Source: Spirochaetales bacterium
Lineage (GTDB): Bacteria; Spirochaetota; Spirochaetia; DSM-2461
DNA length: 64,000 nucleotides
Assembly (NCBI GenBank): GCA_003247135.1
Contig: QKAW01000026.1
Span: 1-64,000 of the forward strand
Reading direction: 5' to 3'
Shown: in pieces, positions 2,588 through 48,145 of the stretch
How the letters are laid out: every line of letters begins with the position of its first letter
Position numbering within the stretch: the first letter of the stretch is position 1
The notes under the pieces: model-generated
Database searches by the model: none
The model's input: only the letters and a program-made list of their open reading frames with translations
What the model was told of the DNA's origin: nothing
Made by a program: the position numbers and the translations under genes

Positions 2588-5500
2588 TTAAAGCCTTCTG
2601 CAGCCCGGACCCTTTATTTTCCCTCTGCCTCCAGGTTCTTTTACTATACTGATCTGAGTAGAGATCCTCTGTTTTAGACTTGGGATATGGGATATAACAC
2701 CTATAAGTTTACCTTCCTGTTTAAGGCCGGATAGAGTCTCGAGAGCTATATCCAGAGTGTCTTCATCCAGAGTCCCAAAACCTTCATCCAAAAATAGAGA
2801 ATCTATTCTTACATTTTTACTGGACATTTTTGAGAGTCCCAGAGCAAGAGCAAGGGATATTATAAAACTCTCCCCACCTGAAAGATTTTTTGTTGAACGA
2901 ATCTCTCCTGTGTGATAGTTATCAATAACATTTAATTGTAATGATGCTTCCGAGTCCCTTATAAGTAAATAACGGTCACTCATTTTTACAAGTTCCCTGT
3001 TTGAAAGAGCTATCATCTTGTCAAAGGTTAGACTTTGTGCAAAAACCCTGAATTTTTTTCCATCTGCAGAGCCAATAAGGTTATGAAGTCTTTGCCACCT
3101 GTTACAAATCCTTTTTTGTATCTCAATGTTCTCAAGTTTCTCCTGGTATAGTTTCATGGAATCTTCGCTGTCTGTAAGGCGTTGTTTTATACCACCTTTT
3201 TCTTCACTTAATTTCTTAAGTTCCAAACGTATACCTTCAATTCTCTCTTCAAGTTCTTGTAACTGGGAATATTCTGAACACAGTGCTGTAAGTTCAGATA
3301 TTTTTCTCTGTTTACTATTTATATTATTTTCAGATAAGGTTAGCTCTTTCTGTATCTCCTTATCTTTATTTATCAGAATTTCCAGTTCTTCTCTGGTTTT
3401 AATACTTTTACTAAGGTCATCCAGATTACTAAAACCTGCTCTTTCTATTTTTTCAAAAAGTGATTTCTCTGCTAAATTCAACTCACTCTCACTTTTTAAT
3501 ATTTTCTCTTCCAGATTATCTACACTTCCCTGAAGTTGAACTAATTGAGTTTTTACTAAGTCTTTAGAGTTTATAAGTCCTGAAAGCTCTGCCATACTGT
3601 TTTTAATCTTGCTCTCCAGTTTAACCTCTTCCGTATCAGCCTCTTTATCACCAAAAAGTTCATACCTTTTCTTACTTTTTTCTTCTATGTTTTTATTAAT
3701 TTCAGCAAGTTTATCATTTAGCTCCGTTGATTGATCTATTTCACTTTTAATTGAATCCTCTATACGAGTAAGTCTGTTTTCCAAATCCTTTAATTGATCC
3801 CTAATACTCTCTCTTTTGCTACTATTTCTCTCCCAGGTTAGAACTCTTGATTCTAGTGAATCTACAATTTCCATAGTATTATCCAGAGAGTTAAATTTGT
3901 AATCCCCTACAATTTTTAATAGAGAATCTTTTTTATCTTTTAAAGAATTTTCTAGTTCATTTAACTCTTCATAGTACTTTTCCCCTGAACTTTTTCCATG
4001 AGCATAATCTGATTCCATTATAGATAAGCTTTTCTCAAAAAATATAATCTCATTAGCAACTTCTTTAATAGAATTACTCAGATCTTCGATGTCTTTCTCT
4101 TTACTCTCTATTAAATTTATTAATTTCTCCAGATCAATAGTTTTTTTCTTATTTTCATCTATATCACCTTTATGCAGTTGAGAAACTGGATGCATTAATG
4201 AACCACATAATGGACAGGGTTCTCCTTCAATGAGATTTTTTCTCTCCTCTTCTAAAGAATAAATTCTATTTAGAAGACTAATCTCCCTGTAAAGGGAATT
4301 AAGCTCGGCTCTGACTTCTCTTAAAAGAAGTCCATTAAGTAGATTATTAATACTATCTTTAACAACAATAAGTTTTTTATCCAGATTTGTTTTACGATTC
4401 TTTGCCTCATCCAGTTTCTTATACTCCTTATCTATATCTACTCGCTTTCTATCAATTTCTTCACTCAAATTATTAAATTTTTCTCTTTTGGATTTTAGAA
4501 CATCGGATAACTCTTCATACTCATTAATTTTTAACTTAATTCCACTAAGATTATATATTAAGGTCTCATCTCCCTTGTTCTCTTCAAAAAATTGATGGAT
4601 TTTTATGTTTTCAAGGTTTAGAGATTTTACAATATCTGCATAACCAGTTCTTTCATTCTTATACTCATTAAGCTTTTTGTTAATTAAAGACATTTTTAAC
4701 TCTATTTCATTTGCAGTTTTACTATTTTGCTCAATATCATAATCTAAAACTCTTATCTCTTTAGTAATAAGCTGTAGAATTGACTTCTCTTCTTTTAAAG
4801 TGTTTAAATAATCCTCTTTCTCTTTTAATATTTTTTGACTTAATGAATACCTGGATTCCAATGTAAAAATTTTTTCCTTAGCTGTTTTTAATGAGGTAGT
4901 ATCACTATTCTGCTCAAAGATTATTTTTTTATATAAAGCAAAATCAGCTTCTAGGTCTCGGGCTCTTACAGCTTTTTCTATTGACTCTTTCTCAAGCTTG
5001 AAATCATCAACAATTTTTAATACTTCTTCCTTATGGTGATAATCAATTACTAATTCATTTTTCAGTTTTTCCAGCTCATTATAAACTAATAATTTTCCGC
5101 TAATATCCAGCTCTTCTTTCTGATTATCATATATCTTTCTGTCGATCTCCTCAATTTTATCCTGTAACGTCTCAATTTCAGACTCTGAAAGCATTGGGAT
5201 ACCCTCTGCTTCCCTATGCATTAAATCTTTTTTATCACTTTCTATCTTTAGACATTCATGGACCTTCTGAGATATTCTAGTGTATATCTCTGTACCTGTA
5301 ATCTGCTCCAATATTGGAGCTCTTTCATCCGGGGTTGCTTTTAAAAAAGCAGAAAAACTCCCTTGGGCCAGAAGTATTGATCTTGTAAATCTGTCTAAAT
5401 CGAGTCCTGTTATATCAGTAATAAAATTACTTACATCTCTTTTTTTATTTTCGAATACCTGACCTGTCACGCCATTACTTACTTCATGCCTGGCATCCAT

Positions 5501-40762: not shown

Positions 40763-41602
40763 CTAATACCTGTCTAAACCGATATCAAAGTTTTTAATTG
40801 AATGTGTTAAAGCTCCGCTGGAGATAATATCAACTCCACTTAACGCAACACTTTTAATTGTCTCTATAGAAATATTACCGGATGCTTCAGTTATCATTTT
40901 CCCATTAACAAGGGTTACTGCCTCTTTTAAAACTTCTGGTGTCATATTATCTAGTAAAACAATATCTACCGGATTTTCCAAAAGTTCCTTAAGCTGATCC
41001 AGAGTATCAACTTCAACTTCAATTTTAACAGTATGGCCTACATAATCTTTGACTTTTTGTACAGCTTCAGTCAATGAATTACTAAATGCCAGATGGTTAT
41101 CTTTAATCATAACAGCATCATCCAGACCAAACCGATGATTAAAACCACCACCGACTTTAACTGCGTATTTTTCTAAAACCCTGAACCCTGGAGTTGTTTT
41201 TCTTGTATCAACGACCTTAGCCTTTGTCCCCTCCACTTCTTTAACTAGCCTGTTTGTAAAGGATGCAATACCACAGAGACGCCCTAACAAATTCAGACAT
41301 GTTCTCTCTGCCGACAACATGGCTCTTATGTTTCCTGATACTTTAACTATTTTATCACCAACCTTAACAAGGTCTCCATCTTTTTTATAGAATTCAAATT
41401 TAACATTTGGATCCAATACCTCAAATGCATAGAGGGATGCATTTAATCCTGCTACTATCCCCTCTTCTCTTGCTCTTAAAACCGTTTCGCCCATTGCATC
41501 TTCAGGAATTAAGGCATCGGTAGTTAAATCTCCTCCCTTGCTAAAATCTTCCAGCAGAGCATTTTCTATAATATGTTTATACTGTATCTTGTGTAGTGTC
41601 AT
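40763..41602 (-). CDS. nadC: Quinolinate phosphoribosyltransferase NadC
   Basis: EDFSKGGDLTTDALIP, ERTCLNLLGRLCGIASFT, VVDTRKTTPGFRVLEKYAVKVGGGFNHRFGLDDAVMIKDNH, IEVEVDTLDQ, TEASGNIS. Confidence 0.96.
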   Translation of the reverse strand: MTLHKIQYKHIIENALLEDFSKGGDLTTDALIPEDAMGETVLRAREEGIVAGLNASLYAFEVLDPNVKFEFYKKDGDLVKVGDKIVKVSGNIRAMLSAERTCLNLLGRLCGIASFTNRLVKEVEGTKAKVVDTRKTTPGFRVLEKYAVKVGGGFNHRFGLDDAVMIKDNHLAFSNSLTEAVQKVKDYVGHTVKIEVEVDTLDQLKELLENPVDIVLLDNMTPEVLKEAVTLVNGKMITEASGNISIETIKSVALSGVDIISSGALTHSIKNFDIGLDRY

Positions 41603-43145
41603 CTTTCCCTCTCTTAATTTTTATTCTGTCCCATTTTATTGATGTCTCGGGATAATCAACTCTGAAGTGTGCTCCACGACTCTCGGTTCTGGCTAACGCA
41701 GCCATTGTAAGCTCTCGACCTAAAAGAATCATATTGTTTAATTCAAGCCAGGAAACAACTCTGGAGAAATCCACAGAACTTTCACCAGATAGTTTCTTTA
41801 CATTATCCTCAATTTTATTAATCTCTTCCAAAGCTCTGTTTAAACTAACTTCACTTCTAATAATACCGCAATATTTATACATAACGGATTGTAGCTCACT
41901 CTTTACTTTTTTTATATCCTCAGCATCCGGAATACTGTTCAGCAAAGGAAAATCTATATCTATTTCCAATACATCATGATATTCCATTAATAATTTCTCT
42001 ACCTCGGATTTTCCATAAACCAGACACTCTAAAAGGGAGTTGCTTGCCAATCTGTTTGCACCATGAACCCCTGTAAAAGCAGCTTCTCCAGCTACTCCCA
42101 ATCCTTTTGGTAGTTCAGAATTTATATCAATGCCACCCATTATATAGTGAACAGCAGGTGTTACAGGAATAAGATCCCTTCTGGGGTTTAGTCCGGCTTT
42201 TAGACAAAATGAAGTAACTGTCGGAAATTTTATATCAATATTCTCTATAGGTTTTAGATCCAGAAAAACATTATGTCCATTGGATATCTCCTTCCAAATG
42301 CTTCTGGAAACAACATCCCTTGGGGCTAACTCCTTTAAGGGTGAGTATTTTCCCATAAAAAGAGCACCATCATCTCTTACAAGCCTTGCCCCTGCTCCTC
42401 TTAAAGCCTCTGTAAGCAGCATTAATGAATCACCATTTTTTACATTAAGGGCAGTTGGATGAAATTGAACCATTTCAATATCCTTAAGAGCTAGGCCTGA
42501 TCTGATTGCAATTGCTATAGAATCGCCAGTAGATTCAGGAGGATTCGTTGTGTGGCCAAAAAGCTGCCCAACACCTCCTGTTGCCAATAAAACTCTTGGA
42601 GATTTTACAAAAACCCATCCATTTTCCTTTGAAAATCCAATTATCCCTTGTATCTTATTATCTGAAATAACTAAATTATATACAAAAAGATTGCACTCCC
42701 AATCGATATTCTCTCTTTTTAAAGCTTCATTATATAGTGTTTCTACCAGAATCTTTCCTGTTGCATCACCACCAGCCTTTAAAACCCTTCGCCTTGAGTG
42801 TGCCCCTTCATGATTTCTTTCCAGTAAGCCACTACTTGTTTTATCAAAAGCCATATTAATATTAACCAGCTTATCAATAGCTAAAGCACCATTTTTTGTT
42901 AAAAAAGATATCTGATCTAGTAAACCTGAGTATACACCAGCAACAACAGTATCCATTTTATGTAATTCCGGAGAATCATCATTTCCAACAGAGGCGGCGA
43001 TACCTCCCTGGGCAAGAGGTGAACTGCCACTACTGAATGAGCCTGTTTTGGTAACAACAAGAACCCTGTTATCTCCAGTTTCAAGAGCAGCTGTTAAACC
43101 TGCTGCCCCGGATCCTACAATAATAAGGTCATAAATTTGCCTCAC
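41577..43145 (-). CDS. nadB: L-aspartate oxidase NadB
   Basis: DLIIVGSGAAGLTAAL, SSPLAQGGIAASVGNDDSPELHK, MVQFHPTALN, PAVHYIMGGIDI, GVHGANRLASNSLLECLVYG. Confidence 0.96.
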   Translation of the reverse strand: MRQIYDLIIVGSGAAGLTAALETGDNRVLVVTKTGSFSSGSSPLAQGGIAASVGNDDSPELHKMDTVVAGVYSGLLDQISFLTKNGALAIDKLVNINMAFDKTSSGLLERNHEGAHSRRRVLKAGGDATGKILVETLYNEALKRENIDWECNLFVYNLVISDNKIQGIIGFSKENGWVFVKSPRVLLATGGVGQLFGHTTNPPESTGDSIAIAIRSGLALKDIEMVQFHPTALNVKNGDSLMLLTEALRGAGARLVRDDGALFMGKYSPLKELAPRDVVSRSIWKEISNGHNVFLDLKPIENIDIKFPTVTSFCLKAGLNPRRDLIPVTPAVHYIMGGIDINSELPKGLGVAGEAAFTGVHGANRLASNSLLECLVYGKSEVEKLLMEYHDVLEIDIDFPLLNSIPDAEDIKKVKSELQSVMYKYCGIIRSEVSLNRALEEINKIEDNVKKLSGESSVDFSRVVSWLELNNMILLGRELTMAALARTESRGAHFRVDYPETSIKWDRIKIKRGKDDTTQDTV

Positions 43146-44146
43146 TACTTAACCTCTAGCATTCTCTCTACAGATTTCTGAGCACCCTTAATTACTTCTG
43201 AGTCTACAAACACTTCAGGAGACATAGTTTCCAAAGTTTCCAGGACATTTTCAACTGTTATTTTTTTCATATGTGGACAAAGATTGCATGGTCTTACAAA
43301 TTCGACATCAGGGTACAAACCTGTAAGGTTATCACTCATTGAACACTCAGTTACCATTAGAACTTTTTTAGGTCTTCTTTCCTCAACAAATTTAATCATA
43401 TCTGCAGTAGAACCGGAAAAATCTGAAGCTTCAACAATCTCTCTTGGGCACTCAGGATGTGCAATTACAACAAGATCCTGGTGTGCAGCCCTAAATTCAT
43501 TAATACTATCAACAGTAAATAATTCATGTACTTCACAACTTCCTTTTGACCATTCAATAAGCTCTTTATCTGTCTGGGTTTGCATATTTCTGCACAAAAA
43601 TCTGTCGGGAACAAAGAGGATTCTATCGCTATCAATACTATCAATAATTTTTTTGGCATTTCCAGATGTACAACAGATATCTACCTCTGCCTTGGTTTCA
43701 GCAGTTGTATTAACATAAGTTACAATAGGAACTCCGGGATACTCTTTTCTTAACATTCTAATGTCGTTACCAGTTATTGAATCGGCTAAAGAGCAACCTG
43801 CTGATGGGTCTGAAATTAATACACGTTTTTCCGGGCTTAAAACCTTTGTAGTTTCAGCCATAAAATATACACCACAAACCAATATTGTATCGGCAGTAGT
43901 TTTAGCAGCTTCTCTGGCAAGCCCCAAAGAGTCACCTCTTATATCAGAAATACAATGAAAAATATCCGGTGTCATATAATTATGAGCCAGTATTACAACA
44001 TTCTTCTCTTTTTTTAGTTTATTAATTCTATATATATAGGGAGCCTTTACCTCCCATTCCATAGGTGGTATTACATCTTTTACCAATTTGTACAGATGAT
44101 CAGTAGCATCCTTAACTTCCTGGGTATACTCTGGAACAATACTCAT
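43145..44146 (-). CDS. nadA: Quinolinate synthase NadA
   Basis: NVVILAHNYMTPDI, GVYFMAETTKVLSPEKRVLISDPSAGCSLADS, VTYVNTTAETKAEVDICCTSGNA, HPECPREI. Confidence 0.96.
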   Translation of the reverse strand: MSIVPEYTQEVKDATDHLYKLVKDVIPPMEWEVKAPYIYRINKLKKEKNVVILAHNYMTPDIFHCISDIRGDSLGLAREAAKTTADTILVCGVYFMAETTKVLSPEKRVLISDPSAGCSLADSITGNDIRMLRKEYPGVPIVTYVNTTAETKAEVDICCTSGNAKKIIDSIDSDRILFVPDRFLCRNMQTQTDKELIEWSKGSCEVHELFTVDSINEFRAAHQDLVVIAHPECPREIVEASDFSGSTADMIKFVEERRPKKVLMVTECSMSDNLTGLYPDVEFVRPCNLCPHMKKITVENVLETLETMSPEVFVDSEVIKGAQKSVERMLEVK

Positions 44147-44162
44147 AATTTCTCCTAACTAA

Positions 44163-44204
44163 TACTCATATTGAGCATAAATCTTATACTCTTAATGAGC
44201 ATAA
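44163..44204 (-). promoter_or_regulatory. Tandem operator-like repeats upstream of nadA (candidate NadQ/NrtR-type site)
   Basis: TACTCATATTGAGCATAA (44163-44180) and TACTCTTAATGAGCATAA (44187-44204): imperfect dyads, 24-bp period. Confidence 0.65.
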
Positions 44205-44229
44205 TCCTCCTTGAGAAAAAAAAAGTCAA
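44201..44229 (-). promoter_or_regulatory. Candidate nadA promoter overlapping the operator
   Basis: Minus strand TTGACT (44229-44224), 17 bp, GATTAT (44206-44201). Confidence 0.4.
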
Positions 44230-44281
44230 GTCAATTGGATTAATATGAACAAGAATTCTATATTTATATAAAGAGGTAACT

Positions 44282-44953
44282 ATGATACTGCTAATAACTT
44301 TAATGCTTAATTTTTTTCAGATAGAGGAATGGTTAAACAACGAAAAACAGAGTACAGAGCTTATAGAAATATTAAATAAAAGTGATAAACAGATCGACAA
44401 CGAGATTAGTGGTTTTGAATACTACTACCGGAAAAGCCTGATAAATCTTTATAAAGGAAAAATCTATTTAGATAACAATCAAAAAAAGGAATCGATTAAA
44501 TCTTTGGAGCAATCTATGGACTTCGCCATGGAGGCATTAAAGTTAAGAGAGGATTCAGACTGCTGGAGAGTAATGGCAGATGCAGGTAGTGCATTAATGC
44601 TTCAGAAAGGTCTACCATACATAATACAGAATTCCGGAAAAATTAATGATTACGCCTTAAAATCCCTGGAAATTGACAGCATGAACAGCAAGGCACATAT
44701 CATAGTTGCTGCTGGACTAATAAATGCTCCTCCAATATTTGGCGGAGATATAAAAAAAGGAATATCTATTTTAAAAAATCTTATTATAGATGAGGATGAT
44801 AAAGAAGCATCTCTAACCAGATCCATTATACTTACAGAAGCTTATATAAAGATAAAAGATAGGGATTCAGCTAAAAAAAGCTTAAATGAAGGATTTATAA
44901 ATTTCCCCCAAAATAAAAAGTTGAATAAGTTAAAACTTTCCCTTGAAGGGTAA
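44282..44953 (+). CDS. TPR-like protein
   Basis: Helical repeats (KGKIYLDNNQKKESIKSLEQSMDFAMEALKL, YALKSLEIDSMNSKAHIIVAAGL). Confidence 0.65.
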   Translation: MILLITLMLNFFQIEEWLNNEKQSTELIEILNKSDKQIDNEISGFEYYYRKSLINLYKGKIYLDNNQKKESIKSLEQSMDFAMEALKLREDSDCWRVMADAGSALMLQKGLPYIIQNSGKINDYALKSLEIDSMNSKAHIIVAAGLINAPPIFGGDIKKGISILKNLIIDEDDKEASLTRSIILTEAYIKIKDRDSAKKSLNEGFINFPQNKKLNKLKLSLEG

Positions 44954-45928
44954 ATTAAGTCCTATATTAATTAGTTCAGCTTCAACATCTTTTCGAAACA
45001 TATAGGTTGCAGCAGGTCTACCTGGGCCGGAACAATCCTCATTCCCTGTTTCGATAACAAATTTCCCCTGTTTTATATAGCGTCTAAAATTCTGTTTATG
45101 CATAAGAATTCCTGTTAAACCTTCATATACCTTTTGTATGGTTAGCAATGTAAATTCATTTGGTAAAAGTTTAAAAACAATTGGTCTATAGGGTAATTTA
45201 CCACGTATTCTAGCAGTTGTTGATGCTAAAATTCTCCTGTGATCCCCTTCCATACTCATTCCCAAATTTTCAGAAAGTTTACGGTACTCAGGCTCCATTA
45301 TTTTTTTAGCTGTTATTGGCAGAATATAACCTGCATCTTTTGCCCAGTCATCCCAGTCCCTGTGGGATTCAGAAACAAGACCTGCTTCATAAAGAACTTC
45401 ATAACGAAACAGAACCTTACTCATATCCCAATTTGTAAAATCACCAAAATTTACCCTTAGACGCTCTAATCGTAATTTTCTCTCATCAGAATTATCTGAC
45501 TCCTGGGCCCATTCCAGTAAATTAGGTTTAATAATCCTTGATACAATTTCAGGTACACCCTGTCGGAAATCTTCCCAAGGAAAAAATGAGTATAAATTTA
45601 CCCATCTGCCGGGAAGTTTCATATCTGTCTTTACATAGGGTATTAGAGCATAGTAACCAACAGTAACATTCCTGCTCCCATGTCTGCTTACAGCATTCCT
45701 ATTCCAGTTACCGTAAGTATAAAGTTGTTCAACATAGTCAAGTTTTTGTCCTGTTTTTTCCTCAACCCAGGCTCTTAAACCCAGCTCCAGAGTTCTATGT
45801 TCATCAGGAGCAAATGCTCCACTTGGAAGGGATAGAGGAGACTGAAGTGTCATAACCTGAGGTTCACCATATTTTGTTCTTAAAATAACAGCTGTTAAAT
45901 CAACTGTTATTGCATTTTCTCTACTCAA
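44930..45928 (-). CDS. nadQ: NadQ/NrtR-like regulator: non-catalytic Nudix domain plus C-terminal winged helix
   Basis: MSRENAITVDLTAVILRTKYGEPQV, degenerate Nudix box LPSGAFAPDEHRTLELGLRAWVEEKTGQ, wHTH KLLPNEFTLLTIQKVYEGLTGILMHKQNFRRYIKQGKFVIETG; near nadABC. Confidence 0.75.
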   Translation of the reverse strand: MSRENAITVDLTAVILRTKYGEPQVMTLQSPLSLPSGAFAPDEHRTLELGLRAWVEEKTGQKLDYVEQLYTYGNWNRNAVSRHGSRNVTVGYYALIPYVKTDMKLPGRWVNLYSFFPWEDFRQGVPEIVSRIIKPNLLEWAQESDNSDERKLRLERLRVNFGDFTNWDMSKVLFRYEVLYEAGLVSESHRDWDDWAKDAGYILPITAKKIMEPEYRKLSENLGMSMEGDHRRILASTTARIRGKLPYRPIVFKLLPNEFTLLTIQKVYEGLTGILMHKQNFRRYIKQGKFVIETGNEDCSGPGRPAATYMFRKDVEAELINIGLNLPFKGKF

Positions 45929-46413
45929 GCTCTTTTTCTCTTATATATAATAAATATTAAAATAGCCAGCGCTATAGTTAGAGCCGAAAGCAGTATAATA
46001 ATTCCGGAAACATCTCTCTCTTGGGCAAGGATAAATTCTTCAGATATTTCAACAGGAATCTGCAAATTTCCATCTTTATCAGATATTTGAAACCCAACAA
46101 TAACATTAATAGAAGGTTTTTCCTGTTTAATGCCATCTATTTCATATATTGTTCCATTTAAAACAAGTTTATCCCTGTATATTATAATACCTTCACTATC
46201 TATATCACCATCAGGGTATCCGTTAAATTGATAATTAAAATCATTGGATTCAATCAACAAATAAAGAGTTTCCGGGTTTAGATTTATACTCTCCCCTTCA
46301 TTTAACTCTATTAAAGCGGTAACACTTTCTCTATCAGCTTTAATTGTAACTCTGTTTTCACTAAACAATGAGAAGCCCGCTAAAAAAATAATGCAAGAAA
46401 TTAACTTTTTCAT
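45925..46413 (-). CDS. Hypothetical exported protein with C-terminal TM
   Basis: Signal peptide MKKLISCIIFLAGFSLFS, C-terminal TM then KRKRA. Confidence 0.55.
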   Translation of the reverse strand: MKKLISCIIFLAGFSLFSENRVTIKADRESVTALIELNEGESINLNPETLYLLIESNDFNYQFNGYPDGDIDSEGIIIYRDKLVLNGTIYEIDGIKQEKPSINVIVGFQISDKDGNLQIPVEISEEFILAQERDVSGIIILLSALTIALAILIFIIYKRKRA

Positions 46414-46425
46414 AAATACACCCCA

Positions 46426-46989
46426 CTACATAATGCCTGAAAAAGCATAAATAAGCCACAAAAAAAATATGGTATACATAACTCTCTGATATAAACCCCT
46501 TGGGCCCTCTTTTCTTGCTGCATGAGCAGAAGTATATAAAATACCTACTAAAACTGTAATATTTAAAATTCTGTTAAAAACACCAATCACAACCACAAAT
46601 TTCATAACCACAAGTAAAGCCATGGAAAGACCAGACAATTGCAGTAACAGATTATGCAATCTACTCTCTTTAAGAGAGTAAAAAACCAGATGTTCAAAGG
46701 GTTTTGACGAGAAAACCCCACTTAAAAAGATAAATAGAGAAAATAACGATAATGGTATCATATAGTGAGCTTCAGTAATAAAGATCTCTCTGGAATTCAA
46801 AACTCCAGCCATAATAATTATACCAAGACCTTTAAATCCCCACTGCATCAAGCCTCGGTTCTCATAGGTTTGACAGCCTAATTCACTTAAAGTATTGTAT
46901 TTTCTACTATAAGTCTCTGGAGCTTTCTTCTGAGCTATAAAAGTTACAAATCCAAAGTAAATTGTGGCAGTAATAATAAAAAGTATCAT
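46426..46989 (-). CDS. DUF998-like integral membrane protein
   Basis: YSRKYNTLSELGCQTYENRGLMQWGFKGLGI motif and multiple TM helices. Confidence 0.6.
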   Translation of the reverse strand: MILFIITATIYFGFVTFIAQKKAPETYSRKYNTLSELGCQTYENRGLMQWGFKGLGIIIMAGVLNSREIFITEAHYMIPLSLFSLFIFLSGVFSSKPFEHLVFYSLKESRLHNLLLQLSGLSMALLVVMKFVVVIGVFNRILNITVLVGILYTSAHAARKEGPRGLYQRVMYTIFFLWLIYAFSGIM

Positions 46990-47116: not shown

Positions 47117-47476
47117 ATGAATTTAAGCTTAATTTTATTATTGGCTGCAGGTTTTTTATTGATTAAATTCTTCCAGGCAAAATCCGGACTTAAACCACAG
47201 GATGCCAAGCGCATTGTTTCTGAAGGCGGTAGAGTTATAGATGTAAGATCAATAGGAGAATATAAAAGTGGTCACTTTAAATCTGCTATTAACATTCCCC
47301 ATACAGAGATATTAAAAGGGATAAAAAAAGCCAAATTAGGAAAGGATTCTCCCTTAATTCTTTACTGTGCAAGTGGAGCAAGATCAGCTGCTGCAATATC
47401 AACCCTTAAATCTGAAGGTTACACACAGGTTTACAATGGTGGAACCCTAAGAAGAATTACTAGTTTACTCTCCTAG
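47117..47476 (+). CDS. Membrane-anchored rhodanese-like protein
   Basis: RVIDVRSIGEYKSGHFKSAINIPHTEI, LILYCASGARSAAAISTLKSEGYTQVYNGGT; ATG at 47117 with RBS preferred over track start 47057. Confidence 0.9.
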   Translation: MNLSLILLLAAGFLLIKFFQAKSGLKPQDAKRIVSEGGRVIDVRSIGEYKSGHFKSAINIPHTEILKGIKKAKLGKDSPLILYCASGARSAAAISTLKSEGYTQVYNGGTLRRITSLLS

Positions 47477-48145
47477 TTTCTCATTTTTCAAAAATTCTTT
47501 TAAAGCACTTATCCCCTTCTCTGTAGCACCATATTTTCCTCGCTCTTCAGATTTATAAAACCATCCATAAAAATTTTTATAGAGAATGTTGTAGGTTTTT
47601 GGGGAAGAACCTTTTAATTTAAGCTCTTTAGCACTAAGAAAACCATGATTAACAAGAAGTTCAACAATCTCCAATGCACTTTCACGATAAGCTGTAAGTA
47701 GTTTTACCCCAACTGATCCACCCCTGTTATAATTAGATTTTCTGTTGTTAAATTCTGTTATAATAGATTCCCTAAGCTTTTTCTTAACTCTCTTTTTGTA
47801 ATTTTCCGGGTCTATAATTACTTCTACCTTTTCACTTTTTTTAAGAAAAGTAACGGTAATTAATCCAAGCTCCAGTCTTTTTAACAATTTTATAAACTGT
47901 TTTCTGTTAGGAATTGCTTTACCGGGTAAAACCGGGATGGCAACATAAACATTATCGCAAAACTCCTGTCTCTCTACACATTGATAGATTAACTTAAGAT
48001 TAACCGAACATTTACACTCCACGACAATAAGTTTATCATCCTTTATTGCAGTAATATCACAGTTTTTGACTTCACTTCGGACACGGAAACCGGAATCTTC
48101 TAAAAATTTTTCTATAGGTGCTGAGATCTCTACCTCTTTAATCAT
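47465..48145 (-). CDS. DUF2161-like putative PD-(D/E)XK phosphodiesterase
   Basis: FRVRSEVKNCDITAIKDDKLIVVECKCSVNLKLIYQ (D...ExK core). Confidence 0.7.
   Translation of the reverse strand: MIKEVEISAPIEKFLEDSGFRVRSEVKNCDITAIKDDKLIVVECKCSVNLKLIYQCVERQEFCDNVYVAIPVLPGKAIPNRKQFIKLLKRLELGLITVTFLKKSEKVEVIIDPENYKKRVKKKLRESIITEFNNRKSNYNRGGSVGVKLLTAYRESALEIVELLVNHGFLSAKELKLKGSSPKTYNILYKNFYGWFYKSEERGKYGATEKGISALKEFLKNEKLGE

Follow-up and report, generated by a model that had tools for sequence, protein, structure and literature searches.

Does a spirochaete carry a complete NadQ circuit for the control of de novo NAD synthesis, and if so, how did it come by it? The question is raised by a 64,000-nucleotide stretch of a Spirochaetales bacterium contig (the window), in which a gene for a putative NAD regulator lies close to nadABC. 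NadQ and its regulon have been described from Proteobacteria, and the published range of the regulator comprises the Alpha-, Beta- and Gammaproteobacteria (PMC5343134). The original prediction, made from the letters of the window, read the locus as a NadQ/NrtR-like regulator with tandem operators at nadABC.

Identity and predicted fold of the regulator

The regulator gene and the gene next to it are as follows.

44930..45928, minus strand: nadQ, NAD-biosynthesis transcriptional regulator, 332 aa, TTG start
45925..46413, minus strand: gene for a 162-aa predicted membrane protein, directly upstream of nadQ

The 332-aa open reading frame was found as predicted, its TTG start overlapping the stop of the upstream gene as TTGA. 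A phmmer search returned Agrobacterium tumefaciens NadQ as the best match in the PDB (7q91; E 9.6e-61), with homology spanning both domains (residues 9–188 and 220–327), and in the winged helix the two proteins share an identical recognition-helix segment, HKQNFRR. The winged helix itself, also claimed originally, scored 68 bits with Pfam NrtR_WHD (cut-off 27); Pfam AraR_C was matched as well. No NUDIX domain was found in the N-terminus with Pfam.

A structure model of the protein was built from 25 homologues (mean pLDDT 86.5) and compared with known structures using Foldseek (E 8.3e-31 to NadQ 7q92). The best fold matches were the four NadQ structures, namely the native form and the ATP, NAD and DNA complexes (TM-score 0.71–0.78 by query length), followed more weakly by AraR, NrtR and Nudix enzymes. 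Because the model matches NadQ and then Nudix folds, the N-terminus is Nudix-like in its predicted fold, which is consistent with the Nudix-like domain with a broken catalytic box that had been proposed. An alignment of 25 NadQs, the window's included, contains 46 invariant columns. The linker between the sensor and the winged helix is longer in the spirochaete NadQs than in most proteobacterial ones, and the response to effectors could therefore differ. Judged by its sequence and modelled fold, the product of 44930–45928 (minus strand) is a full-length NadQ and not an NrtR, so that only the first half of the NadQ/NrtR-like assignment is retained.

The TTGA overlap of the 162-aa gene with nadQ is conserved in three species, which suggests translational coupling of the two genes, and they are probably co-transcribed. 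No family above cut-off was found for the 162-aa protein in Pfam or NCBIfam. A DUF998 gene precedes its gene (45925–46989 region). The 226-aa ORF of the window at 47465–48145 corresponds to two ORF pieces in the congener G001 (L150 9029–9696), possibly a pseudogene or a sequencing error in that genome.

Predicted operators and candidate promoter of the nadABC operon

The features of the operon are listed below; the operators are written on the nadA strand.

40763..41602, minus strand: nadC, quinolinate phosphoribosyltransferase, TIGR00078 above cut-off, overlaps nadB
41577..43145, minus strand: nadB, L-aspartate oxidase, TIGR00551 above cut-off
43145..44146, minus strand: nadA, quinolinate synthase, TIGR00550 and NF006878 above cut-off
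44152–44156, minus strand: AGGAG ribosome site of nadA
44160..44180, minus strand: predicted NadQ operator, nadA-side, TTATGCTCAATATGAGTATTA, 12/12 of the core and 20/21 of the consensus
44184..44204, minus strand: predicted NadQ operator, promoter-side, TTATGCTCATTAAGAGTATAA, 12/12 of the core and 20/21 of the consensus
44201..44229, minus strand: candidate sigma-70 promoter of nadABC, from a pattern scan

The three genes overlap or abut, their predicted identities were upheld by curated NCBIfam models, of which each gene passes a cut-off, and the order nadA-nadB-nadC is kept in the congeners. The consensus against which the repeats were scored, ttATRCTCannntGAGYATaa, was derived from seven proteobacterial lineages (PMC5343134). 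The two dyads of the original prediction were recovered at their place and with their start-to-start spacing of 24 bp, but as elements of 21 bp rather than 18 bp. Both predicted operators lie within 14–58 bp upstream of the nadA start, and nadQ is 0.8 kb off.

On the nadA strand, a −35 element TTGACT (44224–44229) is followed after a 17-bp spacer by the −10 element GATTAT (44201–44206), which runs into the promoter-side operator with an overlap of 4 bp, and then by the second operator, AGGAG and ATG. A dyad overlapping the candidate −10 had been predicted and is thus seen. Taken alone, the hexamer match of the promoter does not exceed the chance level, with 1 match found and 1.2 expected. When three congeners are aligned, TTGACTTTTTT, GA[T/A]TAT and the promoter-side operator are kept, while most of the flanks diverge. 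The nadA-side operator is present in G001 and absent in the congener G002, which has a single operator.

Besides these two operators there is no full-core (12/12) site in the 64 kb, for which a first-order Markov model gives a chance expectation of 0.013. A wider regulon was sought in the whole genome, where the two additional full-core matches fall inside ORFs, and in the genomes of three congeners, in which the other full-core sites are all inside ORFs. A similar pair of one-mismatch sites in G000 and G002 falls within orthologous-looking coding sequence. Autoregulation was also sought, and no strong site was detected near nadQ in the seven carriers scanned. The nadQ of the window has no site of its own and hence gives no sign of autoregulation, a trait that only some NadQ groups have (PMC5343134).

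Co-occurrence of regulator and sites

At 43 spirochaete loci the scan covered 300 bp ahead of nadA, or a shorter stretch where a contig ended (two cases); the loci come from related genomes and do not represent 43 independent events. Sites matching the consensus at 19 or more of its 21 positions were present in all 14 NadQ-positive genomes with an examined nadA; conservation of the repeats upstream of nadA in relatives with the regulator, on which the original prediction had been staked, was therefore found throughout. The nadA loci of genomes without detected NadQ scored at most 15/21 in every case (29/29); some of these genomes are incomplete assemblies, and there NadQ may be absent only because of a gap. 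A fifteenth carrier (G469, 76% complete) lay outside the scan, with no nadA match listed for it. Eight of the NadQ-negative genomes have a NadA of the carriers' close type. As the sites are absent there despite this similarity, their presence goes with the regulator and is not simply tied to the type of NadA.

The operators upstream of nadA are mostly paired (loci L094–L100 and L123–L129), with one strong site only in two genomes. Their start-to-start spacing is 22 bp in six genomes and 24, 26, 32, 41, 111 or 118 bp in others. A search of 12 spirochaete genomes for NiaR (PF02829) gave no hit.

Distribution and origin

NadQ was found in 15/395 sampled genomes of the window's class, with six family codes, and in five of 393 genomes sampled from the phylum. 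Named records from other bacteria belong to the Alpha-, Beta- and Gammaproteobacteria, the Acidobacteriota and the Actinomycetota, although some of the non-spirochaete records are metagenome bins for which misbinning is possible; several of the named records have sites resembling the consensus no more than a few kilobases from nadQ. The claim that the regulator sits outside its usual lineage consequently holds against the published proteobacterial range, but the window is no isolated case.

In the tree, 12 spirochaete NadQs including that of the window form one clade of four families (support 100/99), and the remaining three (families f36 and f82) fall elsewhere. A single clade for all fifteen was disfavoured (AU p 0.013), a result that is only suggestive because this post hoc test was chosen after the tree had been seen. 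The NadA tree gives no clear branching order for the NadQ carriers.

Regulator, sites and gene order are common to the genus, with NadQ identities of 74–84% across three species, and the nadQ neighbourhood is syntenic with that of G001 (two-contig assembly). In 13 other family members searched, NadA is only about 40% identical to that of the genus; a further member, G024, gave a split NadA match of 44–51%. None of the family members sampled from other genera yielded a full-length NadQ.

This difference between the genus and its own family, together with the somewhat higher G+C content of nadQ and nadABC (36–38%, window median 33%), would fit a recent transfer of regulator and nadABC as one block from a proteobacterium. 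We regard such an event as improbable. The window NadQ lies inside the well-supported spirochaete clade of 12 genomes, the G+C values fall on or close to the upper limit of the spread within the window, and a recent transfer judged by composition is not supported. Nor is a recent horizontal transfer of NadQ supported more generally, because even the nearest non-spirochaete NadQs do not exceed 45% identity to the window's and because the whole genus has kept regulator, sites and gene order. The horizontal transfer originally suggested is plausible only as an older event, which fits the trees and has no recognisable donor; either the module is an ancient gain of the genus, or it was lost and replaced in the relatives. 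More tentatively, and with somewhat less than an even chance of being right, NadQ, operator and nadABC may be viewed as one unit inherited or transferred across phyla, of which at least two lines entered or survived in spirochaetes, and which in this genus replaces the family's usual divergent NadA without NadQ. If this is true, NadQ extends across four or more phyla, and its operator has hardly changed among them.

Alternative target and alternative identities

One further ORF lies between nadA and nadQ.

44282..44953, plus strand: TPR-like ORF, weak TPR_8 match

It is divergent from nadA and convergent with nadQ, and has orthologues of 45–46% identity in both congeners. The stretch that separates the two divergent genes holds the operators, and all three congeners retain the ORF, as would be expected if the sites also or mainly controlled it. 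This is very unlikely, however, as the sites are close to the nadA start and overlap the candidate nadA promoter, NadQ-positive genomes of other families also have sites upstream of nadA, and in G464 and G516 nadQ is the direct neighbour of nadA on the same strand, in a stretch without a match to the ORF. The TPR-like ORF is probably outside the circuit.

It is scarcely credible that the protein is an NrtR (ADP-ribose-responsive, salvage/recycling) or an AraR-type Nudix sugar regulator, with which it has a winged-helix family (Pfam NrtR_WHD, AraR_C) and PDB matches (AraR 5bs6, NrtR 3gz5) in common; both identities were rejected on sequence (E 2.3e-12 and 1.9e-10 for these two, against 9.6e-61 for NadQ), on fold (5e-15 and 2e-13, against 8e-31) and on the sites, which have the NadQ consensus, and the curated NCBIfam model for NrtR (NF050029) gave 60 bits (cut-off 400), short of a full-length match. 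The spirochaete genome G043 does encode an NrtR-like protein (L010 1117–1803) whose Nudix box is intact; its gene precedes two salvage-like ORFs (1803–2987 and 2960–3295) that, judged by eye, resemble nicotinate phosphoribosyltransferase and nicotinamidase. G043 has the close type of NadA, without NadQ and without a NadQ site at nadA, and its gene context suggests control of salvage by NrtR instead of NadQ.

Proposed mechanism

A spirochaetal NadQ regulon repressing nadABC is very probably the best explanation of the locus. The computations show that the protein is NadQ, that the sites are of the NadQ type, that one of them overlaps the candidate promoter and that regulator and sites occur together; from there we infer binding, repression, dimer state and effector. 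In the proposed circuit, NadQ, consisting of a Nudix-like sensor domain with a degenerate catalytic box and a C-terminal winged helix, would bind the 21-bp palindromes on and just downstream of the nadABC −10, presumably as a dimer like the A. tumefaciens protein. Bound NadQ would block RNA polymerase, and de novo NAD synthesis would thereby be repressed. A transcription start about 7 bp past the −10 would lie within the promoter-side operator; this geometry speaks for simple steric repression. A. tumefaciens NadQ reportedly responds to ATP, as the titles of its structures also indicate, and ATP suppresses its binding to DNA. By analogy, ATP and perhaps also NAD in the Nudix-like domain may modulate DNA binding of the spirochaete protein. 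The repression circuit of the original prediction is thus supported, at the level of sequence and model, by NadQ identity, operators and co-occurrence.

Comparison with known systems

The circuit is ordinary in kind and lies outside the bacterial group in which NadQ was described. It widens the range of a NAD repressor known from experiments, and of its operator, beyond the Proteobacteria. With sites present exactly where the regulator is, it offers a clean natural experiment and makes NAD regulation annotatable in spirochaetes. The lineage boundaries published for such regulators may be an effect of genome sampling.

AraR of Bacteroides (5bs6) resembles the window protein in overall domain plan and winged-helix family, but is a sugar regulator with other targets and weak sequence similarity. 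NrtR (3gz5/3gz6) likewise combines a Nudix-like domain with a winged helix of the same Pfam family, whereas its match in sequence and fold is far weaker and the sites of the window have the NadQ consensus. Proteobacterial NadQ (COG4111; A. tumefaciens 7q91–7q94) has in common with the window's regulator the two-domain protein, the recognition-helix segment, the 21-bp consensus site and the target operon nadABC. The spirochaete version differs from it in its host, in an identity of about 40%, in a longer inter-domain linker, and in a circuit without sign of autoregulation that employs one or two sites at variable spacing.
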